A stretch of 64,000 nt of DNA from Apilactobacillus quenuiae (GTDB lineage: Bacteria; Bacillota; Bacilli; Lactobacillales; Lactobacillaceae). The translations under genes and the position numbers were made by a program. The notes under the pieces are model-generated. The model saw nothing but the letters and a program-made list of their open reading frames with translations. It was not told the origin of the DNA and searched no databases. Positions 34,082 through 40,139 of this stretch are shown piece by piece (within the stretch, counting starts at the first letter, position 1; the number at the start of each line of letters is the position of its first letter). The stretch is taken from NCBI RefSeq assembly GCF_002994005.1, contig NZ_POSN01000003.1, positions 282,446-346,445 on the forward strand. The letters run 5' to 3'.

Positions 34082-34765
34082 TTGTTTAAATATAAAAAGA
34101 CTATAATATCAATGGGATTTTTAGTGACATTAGCTATTTTTTACACTGCTAGTATGATTGTAAGTGGCAACAAAATTCCAGGTACCTATATTGACCGTCC
34201 AATTGAACAAAATGCAAAAGTTGTAGAACTAAATGCTCCTTATATTAGTCAACAATCAGACAGAGCTTGGAATGGTTGTGAAGCTGCTAGTTTATTGGAA
34301 GGTTTTCATGAAAAAGGTATTCTTTTAAATATGAACTTATCAAGCTTTCTAAAACAAATGCCTTATAGCAAAGATGAAAATCCAAATAATGGTTATGCAG
34401 GTTCACCATACGTTGAAAACCAAAATAATATGCCACAGTCTATTTATCCTAAAGCATTAAGTAATTGGGGAAATTTATATCATCATGTAAGTGATATGAC
34501 TGGAGCAACTACTAATGACTTGAGAGAACAGGTTAAAAAGGGAAATCCGGTAGTGACTTATATTGTTAGTCATTATAATGAAACACCTGAGTATCAACAT
34601 TATAAATGGGGATCTGGGATCGTAAATAGTCACGTTGTACTAATGGACGGATATGAACGTGGCTATTATCATATTTCTGATCCTAATCGTGGCAAATATT
34701 GGGTTAAAGCTCACTTGTTTGAAAAAGCATATAACTATAAACGCTATGCTGTTGCTATCCAATAA
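34082..34765 (+). CDS. Exported C39-like (Peptidase_C39_2) cysteine peptidase
   Basis: A 227-residue protein with one N-terminal membrane helix (about 8-28) that anchors or exports it and a C39_2-type domain. Likely catalytic residues: Cys66 in WNGCEAASL, His184 in SHVVLMDGY, Asp200 in HISDPNRG. It lacks the linker and SH3-like part of the homologue at 3997 but keeps NPNNGYAGSPY. TTG start with AGGTGG nine bases upstream; terminator directly after. Confidence 0.8.
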   Translation: MFKYKKTIISMGFLVTLAIFYTASMIVSGNKIPGTYIDRPIEQNAKVVELNAPYISQQSDRAWNGCEAASLLEGFHEKGILLNMNLSSFLKQMPYSKDENPNNGYAGSPYVENQNNMPQSIYPKALSNWGNLYHHVSDMTGATTNDLREQVKKGNPVVTYIVSHYNETPEYQHYKWGSGIVNSHVVLMDGYERGYYHISDPNRGKYWVKAHLFEKAYNYKRYAVAIQ

Positions 34766-37266: not shown

Positions 37267-37746
37267 ATGCCTGAAGAACGTAAATTACCGGTTATTGAAT
37301 TACCAGAAAGACAAATTACTCTTAGCAAACTAGATGAAAAATATGATCCAATTGTTAAAATGATTAATCGCTTCTCAAGAATTGCTCTAGATGGACAATT
37401 TGATGAACGTTACACATTTATTGCTAATTTGAGAGAACTACAAACTTATGCAAAACGTTTTAATCATTACTACAAGTTACAAAAATTAATTATGGTTAAA
37501 ATTGATGATTTAACTAAAGCTAATGATTCAGAAGAAAAAATTAATTTATTGAAGGAATTTTTGAATGGGTACAATGAACACTTGCAAGAAATTCAAGATG
37601 AATTAGACGAAAGCTTTTCTGCTCCTGAAATTGTTGGAATGGGTCATGCTCTTGATAAGTTTATTTATAAAAACTTTGATAAGCTAGAAGATCGCCCTGA
37701 ATTCAATGAATATTTGGAATATAGAATTAAAAATAAAGAACTATAA
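37267..37746 (+). CDS. Helical cytoplasmic protein of unknown function
   Basis: A 159-residue charged, almost wholly alpha-helical protein (coiled-coil tendency at about 20-130) with no signal peptide, Cys-free. Proline-rich start MPEERKLPVIELPER. It has its own SD (AAGGGAG) and terminator and lies just upstream of the secreted ADP-ribosyltransferase, but the two are separate transcripts. I do not recognise the family. Confidence 0.6.
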   Translation: MPEERKLPVIELPERQITLSKLDEKYDPIVKMINRFSRIALDGQFDERYTFIANLRELQTYAKRFNHYYKLQKLIMVKIDDLTKANDSEEKINLLKEFLNGYNEHLQEIQDELDESFSAPEIVGMGHALDKFIYKNFDKLEDRPEFNEYLEYRIKNKEL

Positions 37747-37782: not shown

Positions 37783-37852
37783 ATTTACCATTTAAATATG
37801 TTTTAAAATATTATTATAAAATATATAATTGAATGCATCGAGGAGGGAAAAT

Positions 37853-38839
37853 ATGAAACGATCATACTTAATCGCAATGTTATCTACCTTATCCATTGCT
37901 TTTGTTTTTATTTCAGGTCAATCTGTTGAAGCCAAGCAAAAGACTAATTATGTATATGCTTATAGTAATACAAACTCTGAGTTTAATGTTTCAGATACAC
38001 CAGTAACGCAAAGGGTGGCAAATAAAGATTTTACCGCCAATATCCAAGATAGTGATGCCCAATTACAAATAAAAAAGGGTACCGTTATGAACCTTAAAGA
38101 TGGTAATAATCAGTTAGTAACAATTCCTGATAATACTTCGACTTTATCAATACCTGAAATTAATAGTGTTTCTTATCCTTATAAAGACTATTATTATAGT
38201 AGAAAAGATTATAAAAATTTATCAAAAGATGGTGCTAAATGGGCTAAAGGGTTAAGCAAAGCTCAATATAAAGCTATAGGTGATTATAGTGATTCTGGGT
38301 ATCAAAATGATAATACTTATCTTCGAACCGGAACATCTAAGAAAATTACCAAAACTAAACAAGAAGTTCATAATATTCAAAATGCTTTGAAAAAATTTAA
38401 TTTAAAGAAACCAATGACTGTTTATCGTGGATTAAATGGATCAGGATATTCAAAGGGCTTGAATGGACAAAAAAGTCAAATTGGTTCCGTCTATTCTGAT
38501 AATGCATTTCAATCAACAAGTATTGATAAAAATGCAGCCATTAGATTTTTGAATATGACTGAGAAGAACGCTAATAATAATATTTTAATTAAATTAAATG
38601 TTCCTTCTGGGTATAATGGTGCTTATATTTCATCTGTATCTCAAATTAAAGATGAAAAAGAGTACTTAATTAACTCAAAACAACATGCAGTAATAACTAG
38701 AATTCAAAAGGTTAATGCGAAAATGAATTATAAATATTATTATAAAACCAATTTATCTAAGTCTAAAAGCAAAAAAGTCAGCAATAATTCTAATAATAAT
38801 TTTAACTACACATTAGTTACTATGAATCTTGTTAAATAG
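37853..38839 (+). CDS. Secreted mono-ADP-ribosyltransferase (ADPrib_exo_Tox-like)
   Basis: A 328-residue exported enzyme predicted to transfer ADP-ribose from NAD to a protein. Signal peptide about 1-27 (ends SVEA). Residues about 28-110 form an unassigned N-terminal region; the catalytic domain covers about 113-290. It shows the complete R-S-E set: Arg192 in VYRGLN, Ser-Thr-Ser at 221-223 in FQSTSID, and E268-x-E270 in DEKEYLI. NILIKLNVPSGYNGAYISSV matches the strand pair of iota/C2-type actin-modifying toxins, and the EXE form (instead of QXE) points to an arginine-type acceptor. A Ser/Asn/Lys-rich tail follows. Start ATG 37853 has AGGAGG in front. No binding subunit is encoded nearby. Family fit is strong; target and role are unknown. 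Confidence 0.88.
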   Translation: MKRSYLIAMLSTLSIAFVFISGQSVEAKQKTNYVYAYSNTNSEFNVSDTPVTQRVANKDFTANIQDSDAQLQIKKGTVMNLKDGNNQLVTIPDNTSTLSIPEINSVSYPYKDYYYSRKDYKNLSKDGAKWAKGLSKAQYKAIGDYSDSGYQNDNTYLRTGTSKKITKTKQEVHNIQNALKKFNLKKPMTVYRGLNGSGYSKGLNGQKSQIGSVYSDNAFQSTSIDKNAAIRFLNMTEKNANNNILIKLNVPSGYNGAYISSVSQIKDEKEYLINSKQHAVITRIQKVNAKMNYKYYYKTNLSKSKSKKVSNNSNNNFNYTLVTMNLVK

Positions 38840-38892: not shown

Positions 38893-39699
38893 TTAACCTT
38901 GATCATTATGAAGACGTTTGTCTGCAGGTTTTGTTTTTGGAATTCCACCCATTGCTTCCGGATTTTCTTGATAAGTGAACTTTTTACCATCTTTGGCAGT
39001 TTGACCTTCAAATGCACGTGAACCTTCACCATCAGAGAAGTTCATTAGCACATGAGTAAATTCGTCATGTTCAATATCTTTCATATCGCCAGGTACAACG
39101 ACACCATATTTTTCTTCTAATTCTTCTTGAGCTTTCATAAATTGTAATTGATGTTGAGTTTCACGAGCTAATAAGAATTTTAGCATGTCGCGAACACCTT
39201 CATCTTCAGTCATGTAATATAGACGACTTACTTGCAATCTAGCTTCTGATTCACGAACAACATTAAATCTCATGTCAGCAACTAGATTACCACTTGAGGT
39301 AGTGTAACCTGCATTCCAAGCACCACCATTAGGGTTATTTAAACTAGCTGTCATTCCGTGAACAATTGAATGTTCTGGATCCATTCCAGCATATTTTGCA
39401 GCTAATGAAGGGTCTTTCTTTAAATCTTCTTCACTAGGGTTTAAAGGAGCATCTTCTAAAAGATAAGCAATCATGGTAGAAATCATTTCTACGTGAGCTA
39501 TTTCTTCAGTTCCTGTATCTAATAATAGGTCTTTATATTTTTCATCACCAGTAGATGACCAGCCTTGTGATAAATAGGACATCATTCCAGTTACTTCACC
39601 CCATTGACCACCAAGTGATTCCTGTAATCTACGTGCCATTAATGGATCTGGTCTGTCTGGCTTAGCGTTATATTGTAATTTACGAGTGTGTTTAAACAT
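38893..39699 (-). CDS. Manganese catalase (pseudocatalase)
   Basis: Haem-free dimanganese catalase that splits hydrogen peroxide; 268 residues, family length. Metal ligands known from the L. plantarum enzyme are in place: Glu35 (QWGEVTG), Glu66 and His69 (TGTEEIAHVE), then Glu150 (VVRESEAR) and His183 (RETQHQLQF). The ATG 39699 is chosen for the AAGGAG SD; upstream in-frame codons are not coding-like. The window also encodes MntH, which could supply manganese. It suits a lactobacillus that relies on Mn instead of haem. Confidence 0.95.
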   Translation of the reverse strand: MFKHTRKLQYNAKPDRPDPLMARRLQESLGGQWGEVTGMMSYLSQGWSSTGDEKYKDLLLDTGTEEIAHVEMISTMIAYLLEDAPLNPSEEDLKKDPSLAAKYAGMDPEHSIVHGMTASLNNPNGGAWNAGYTTSSGNLVADMRFNVVRESEARLQVSRLYYMTEDEGVRDMLKFLLARETQHQLQFMKAQEELEEKYGVVVPGDMKDIEHDEFTHVLMNFSDGEGSRAFEGQTAKDGKKFTYQENPEAMGGIPKTKPADKRLHNDQG

Positions 39700-39773
39700 A
39701 AAAATCCTTCTCCTTTTAAATGCTGAGAAAATGAAGAAATTAAATATGATGAAATACAAAGATTATGTATTAC

Positions 39774-40019: not shown

Positions 40020-40029
40020 ATATCAGTTA

Positions 40030-40102
40030 TGGGCAGTCAGGGGCTCGAACCCTGGACCCACGGATTAAGAGTCCGTTGCTCTACCAACTGAGCTAACTGC
40101 CC
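40030..40102 (-). tRNA. tRNA-Lys (anticodon CTT)
   Basis: On the minus strand the acceptor stem GGGCAGT / ACTGCCC, D arm TAGCTCAGTTGGTAGAGCA, anticodon loop CTCTTAA with CTT, and T arm GGGTTCGAACCCC form a full cloverleaf; discriminator base A. CCA is not encoded. It reads AAG codons. Single-tRNA transcript with its own promoter and terminator. Confidence 0.96.
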
Positions 40103-40139
40103 AAACACTTATTAAGTTGTTATTAACTCAACAAATAAT

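Follow-up and report, generated by a model that had tools for sequence, protein, structure and literature searches.

A conserved family of exported-looking ADP-ribosyltransferases in lactobacilli with an N-terminal domain of its own

ADP-ribosyltransferases (ARTs) of the C2/C3/Vip2 superfamily are familiar chiefly as pathogen toxins. What might such an enzyme do when a lactobacillus appears to export it? The question is raised by a gene of Apilactobacillus quenuiae that lies in a 64,000-nucleotide stretch of contig NZ_POSN01000003.1 (the window, by which we mean the whole stretch analysed). A preliminary description had read the gene product as a secreted mono-ART akin to the catalytic subunits of the iota and C2 actin toxins and as unusual for a lactobacillus. 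We confirmed that the gene encodes a predicted secreted, apparently intact ART; the interpretation as a whole is partly supported. The protein is a member of a conserved group of exported-looking lactobacillar ARTs that have their own N-terminal domain (N-domain) and for which we found no earlier description.

The Pfam family PF03496 (ADPrib_exo_Tox), which has one match in the 1.58-Mb source genome (11 contigs), is present in 57 of 397 Lactobacillaceae genomes. Reading of the frames yielded 47 proteins with the exported build (signal peptide, N-domain, ART domain) in 42 of the 397 genomes and 8 of 40 genera, and the idea that such a gene is unusual or rare in lactobacilli had to be given up. 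The other 15 positive genomes were set aside: eight whose proteins were read as phage-head fusions and had weaker scores (G027, G083, G103, G142, G275, G286, G290, G330), and seven excluded unread for weak scores or short frames (G133, G135, G159, G222, G228, G356, G374). Of 395 genomes from across the order, 12 gave a full-length match, every one of them from Lactobacillaceae, and the other 13 positive genomes matched in part only; as far as sampled, the full build is confined to this family. Within Apilactobacillus, 6 of 16 genomes are positive; four species carry the gene at the same locus as in the window, the other two a different copy beside other genes. The 28 named loci include Levilactobacillus brevis, L. 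koreensis and L. parabrevis, Lentilactobacillus kefiri, L. hilgardii and L. parabuchneri, and three Secundilactobacillus; in Nicoliella spurrieriana the copy is on a 344-kb plasmid.

The window protein matches the PF03496 profile at 83.5 bits (cut-off 23.4), and an ART fold is predicted for it. Seven residues never vary over the 47 proteins (R192, G193, S221, S263, E268, E270 and L272), among them the Arg, the first Ser of STS and the Glu of (Q/E)xE that mark the R-S-E class of ARTs. Residue 222 is T in 32 proteins, C in 10, S in 4 and A in 1, and residue 223 is S in 24 and T in 23. The ART domain is the best conserved part, at a mean pairwise identity of 46%; the C-terminal tail stands at 30% and the N-domain at 25%. 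The window ART most likely works like the R-S-E arginine ARTs. Assuming that these residues keep the roles they have in the superfamily, we infer an active enzyme that would bind NAD+ with R192 and S221 in the pocket and use E270 as the catalytic glutamate, while E268 of the ExE motif would point to an arginine acceptor.

Export is predicted for nearly the whole family: in 44 of the 47 proteins a hydropathy script, its output read by eye, detected a signal peptide (a hydrophobic stretch of at least 1.88 with K/R ahead of it), and in the remaining three (L044, L073, L086) a downstream start had been chosen or the frame was cut. About 90 residues separate the signal peptide from the ART domain, and structure prediction places a small SH3b-like fold there (Table 1). 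This argues against the proposed likeness to iota and C2. The catalytic subunits of those toxins have a second ART-like N-terminal adaptor domain of ~200 residues; the lactobacillar protein has no such domain, differing in this from CDTa and Vip2 as well, and is predicted to have the 57-residue SH3b-like fold instead. No SH3 model was among the 11 Pfam families that 29 family members matched up to an E value of 1, and against PDB sequences the N-domain profile gave nothing beyond chance matches (E of 0.2 or more). Occurrence of the N-domain in other proteins was considered and rejected, as 201 genomes gave three weak matches; the two that were read look like proteins that we take, from their letters, to be inositol monophosphatases, and the third is in G106. 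In the full-text literature searched, we found no paper combining an SH3b domain with an ART.

We consider it probable that the protein is an exported, possibly wall-associated mono-ART of the ExE type that acts outside the producer cell. After Sec export and removal of the signal peptide it would consist of a flexible linker, the SH3b-like domain and the catalytic domain. If the model is right, the N-domain may serve as an SH3b-type targeting domain for the ART. It would hold the enzyme on the peptidoglycan of its own cell or of a neighbour, while the catalytic domain would move ADP-ribose onto protein targets outside the producing cell.

Table 1. Positions of the ART gene, its parts and its surroundings in the window.
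Feature	Position	Strand	Remarks
Exported ART gene	37853..38839	+	328 aa (P0001); starts ATG
Sec-type signal peptide, residues 1-27	37853..37933	+	hydropathy; cleavage between VEA and KQ by inspection
Linker, poorly predicted, residues 28-52	37934..38008	+	pLDDT <50 at residues 35-37, 39-48
SH3b-like beta fold, predicted, residues 53-109	38009..38179	+	57 residues; structure prediction
ART domain, residues 116-328	38198..38836	+	Pfam core 128-296; long C-terminal beta hairpin
Arg192 (region 1, YRG)	38426..38428	+	invariant 47/47
Ser221-Thr222-Ser223 (STS)	38513..38521	+	S221 invariant 47/47
Glu268-Lys-Glu270 (ExE)	38654..38662	+	both Glu invariant 47/47
Promoter-like TTTAAA-16-TATAAT	37802..37829	+	10/12 positions
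Ribosome binding site GAGGAGGG	37840..37847	+	precedes ATG of ART gene
Terminator-like stem-loop	37743..37784	.	between upstream 159-aa gene and ART gene
Terminator-like stem-loop	38839..38876	+	3' of ART gene, ahead of convergent Mn-catalase gene
C39-like peptidase gene	34082..34765	+	exported-looking; PF13529, 3.5e-18
159-aa protein gene	37267..37746	+	no significant family match
Manganese catalase gene	38893..39759	-	beside ART gene
tRNA-Lys gene	40029..40103	-

The earlier caution that a host, a competitor or the producer's own envelope could each supply the targets still stands. Membership in the C2/C3/Vip2 superfamily, which includes the C2, iota, CDTa and Vip2 catalytic components (PF03496), was borne out, as was the statement that no binding component is recognised beside the gene. 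It is possible, if short of probable, that the protein is a eukaryote-directed exotoxin that works without a binding subunit, like C3 exoenzymes or Plx2A, and whose target would be actin, a small GTPase or some other protein in the insects, yeasts or protists that share flowers, nests and fermentations. The highest fold scores, which include Plx2A of the honeybee pathogen Paenibacillus larvae, C3 enzymes and Vip2, are consistent with such a toxin. Against it stands the ARTT position: A components of binary actin toxins have, as a general rule, an aromatic residue three positions ahead of the first ExE glutamate (Vip2 has Phe), but the window protein has Ile265 there, and the position is aromatic in only 12 of the 47 proteins, so there is no particular sequence reason to name actin. 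An exotoxin is also hard to reconcile with the lack of any recognised delivery module, with an SH3b-like domain that would suggest bacterial walls, and with the fact that Levilactobacillus and Lentilactobacillus, known mostly from fermentations and plants, together supply 26 of the 42 positive genomes. A. micheneri and A. timberlakei, sister species that both carry the gene, do inhabit wild bees, pollen stores and flowers (PMC6685495; this and the other PMC articles are cited from the parts of their text available to us, unless otherwise stated), and a host-directed ART of a commensal has a precedent in Bxa of Bacteroides stercoris, an arginine ART that serves fitness (PMC11699363). Bxa differs in being prophage-encoded, in having its ART at residues 621–869 and in having two immunity proteins (PMC11699363). 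As for C3-like exoenzymes and Plx2A, the lactobacillar family has ExE throughout (47/47) and an extra N-terminal domain, whereas Rho-targeting C3-like ARTs carry QxE (PMC7764402).

The nearest solved sequence points in another direction. It is the C-terminal ART of Lmo0066 of Listeria (PDB 8za7; 5.8e-14 with the single sequence and 2.1e-33 by profile), and the title of that entry names an ART–ARH toxin effector–immunity pair. Lying at chain residues 425–604, the Lmo0066 ART is the end of a long protein, whereas the window ART is a short protein, predicted to be Sec-exported, with no immunity gene recognised. SH3b domains target bacterial walls, as in lysostaphin, and an interbacterial toxin could use the SH3b-like domain to dock on the walls of related bacteria, which the ART would then damage. 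We think this rather unlikely, as no route through the membrane is apparent and no immunity gene of a known type was recognised. In 53 compared loci (the 47 family loci, three named and three viral ones, with six open reading frames on each side and some cut by contig ends), no small recurring immunity-like gene lay beside the ART gene, and no neighbour cluster occurred in more than 14 loci. The Macro and ARH families were found in none of the 16 Apilactobacillus genomes (controls were positive in 8 and 5 of 14), whereas Lmo0066, by the 8za7 title, and Bxa have ARH-type immunity. Binary_toxB (PF03495) was likewise found in none of the 16, but the controls gave no match either; none of three scanned neighbour genes encodes it.

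The enzyme would seem to act alone: neither a partner gene nor one for a translocation subunit or for immunity was recognised alongside. This would also suit a housekeeping surface enzyme that ADP-ribosylates proteins of its own envelope, or hydrolyses external NAD+ for nicotinamide salvage in a vitamin-dependent bacterium, as would the two paralogous ART groups kept by Lentilactobacillus-type genomes (g14) and the protein's basic character, which a control found in many other exported proteins of these bacteria, leading us to reject high pI as a special trait. Such a role nevertheless seems unlikely to us, because its patchy presence (6/16 in the genus, 42/397 in the family) is unlike housekeeping and because the first Glu of ExE, a trait of transferases rather than of pure NADases, is conserved.

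A more far-reaching reading, possible but short of probable, is a lineage-specific family of surface ARTs in several lactobacillus genera, food species included, in which a signal peptide, an SH3b-like domain and an ExE ART would make a wall-tethered enzyme. It would modify proteins on nearby cells, or on the animals, yeasts or bacteria met as partners, and would do without a binding subunit and without an immunity gene. What harmless bacteria, some of them food-grade, ADP-ribosylate outside the cell is the question posed by a conserved exported-looking ART in L. brevis, L. kefiri, L. hilgardii, L. parabuchneri and wild-bee symbionts, and it can be approached in non-pathogenic, culturable species.

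The open-access literature that we searched held no description of the family, and its sole lead was one candidate. Lactobacillus kunkeei A0A0C3AG37, from the same genus (now Apilactobacillus), is listed as a candidate mART in Tables 1 and 2 of a 2020 data-mining survey whose pipeline demanded predicted secretion, and was threaded onto Vip2 (PMC7764402; known to us from the table rows alone). The regular expression of that survey was considered as the reason the family was overlooked and rejected, as 32 of the 47 proteins match it, the window's included. The string 'ribosyl' is absent from the main text of PMC6685495, on wild-bee lactobacilli, and 'lactobacill' is absent from the available text of PMC3000352 and from the first 300,000 characters of PMC3482391.

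Compared with three related species, the window ART is 67–70% identical, the 159-aa neighbour 88–97% and the catalase 97–98%; the other neighbours range widely (C39-like 61–87%, 127-aa protein 50–76%, 118-aa protein 72–80%, MFS transporter 62–86%). In LG trees the window branch is 0.41 for the ART, against 0.06–0.09 for the other species, and 0.09 for four concatenated flanking proteins, against 0.03 in two species and 0.36 in L040. It is long for the 127-aa protein alone, too (0.27 against 0.10 and 0.06; L040 0.58). The ART thus appears to have changed faster on the window branch, ~5–7-fold against ~3-fold in the flanks, although selection on it is purifying overall. Synonymous sites are near saturation, and the signal is modest. 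Such fast change might mark a decayed or inactive remnant, but an intact frame, the full set of catalytic residues and a pN/pS well below 1 make this very improbable. Replacement of the allele at the locus need not be invoked, because synonymous differences, though near saturation, still follow species order.

Some copies seem to have moved. The ART DNA of L. parabuchneri is 96% identical over 1.2 kb to two Secundilactobacillus copies, a recent transfer that would favour a toxin directed at other bacteria. Direct repeats of 187–188 nt, 93% alike, flank the gene in Secundilactobacillus (L111:4308-5885, L112:457-2000), and the L. parabuchneri stretch has no such pair around it; a small transferable cassette is possible. 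Eight IMG/VR viral contigs (L089–L096) end with an ART gene. The one that was read (L093) has phage-type genes by eye and an ART that is nearly that of L. brevis, so we take the eight for L. brevis prophages. The L. brevis type strain, however, has the ART gene with no phage genes recognised beside it, which led us to reject the gene as phage cargo; the phage seems to be a neighbour of the ART gene, which may border a phage integration site. At the window's place, a tRNA-Lys gene lies nearby and a phage-type integrase adjoins the catalase in A. micheneri (L155:2734-3612), and the stretch may therefore be an insertion hot spot.

Stem-loops on both sides set the ART gene off, and it appears to be a stand-alone unit. 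The window holds three terminator-like sites against 0.8 expected, one of them inside the catalase gene, and 23 promoter-like sites against 19.0 expected (sd 3.8), which is not clearly above chance. Of the 16 genus genomes, the 159-aa gene is found in just the 4 that have the ART gene at this place. Catalase genes are called extremely uncommon in lactobacilli (PMC6685495); 14 of the 16 genus genomes have the catalase. In the 10 of these outside the window's clade, neither the ART nor the 159-aa gene lies in the stretch of up to 1.5 kb covered beside it (one locus was cut and one had masked bases).

Farther afield, the neighbour clusters shared across genera that were read and named by eye encode general types of protein, for example ABC transporter ATPases, dehydrogenases, MFS transporters and LysR regulators; genus-local ones, mostly in Levilactobacillus, include a glutamine-amidotransferase-like gene (11 loci) and a small exported protein (7 loci). 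In Nicoliella a macrodomain-type protein is encoded downstream of the ART gene on the opposite strand (L035:9022-9513, L074:9999-10490); the plasmid record annotates it as O-acetyl-ADP-ribose deacetylase, and there it is the second gene downstream, while its relative in another Nicoliella genome lies further off. A macrodomain partner was rejected, as none was found in the 16 genomes of the window's genus. A second architecture occurs at phage-type Lactobacillaceae loci (L078–L084, L088), in which what is by eye a phage head protein has an ART at its end (one is a short frame); comparable are the phage context of the EFV toxin (PMC3000352) and a matching gene of Enterococcus phage AE4_2, annotated as minor head protein. 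The C39-like peptidase of the window has two adjoining relatives in L040.
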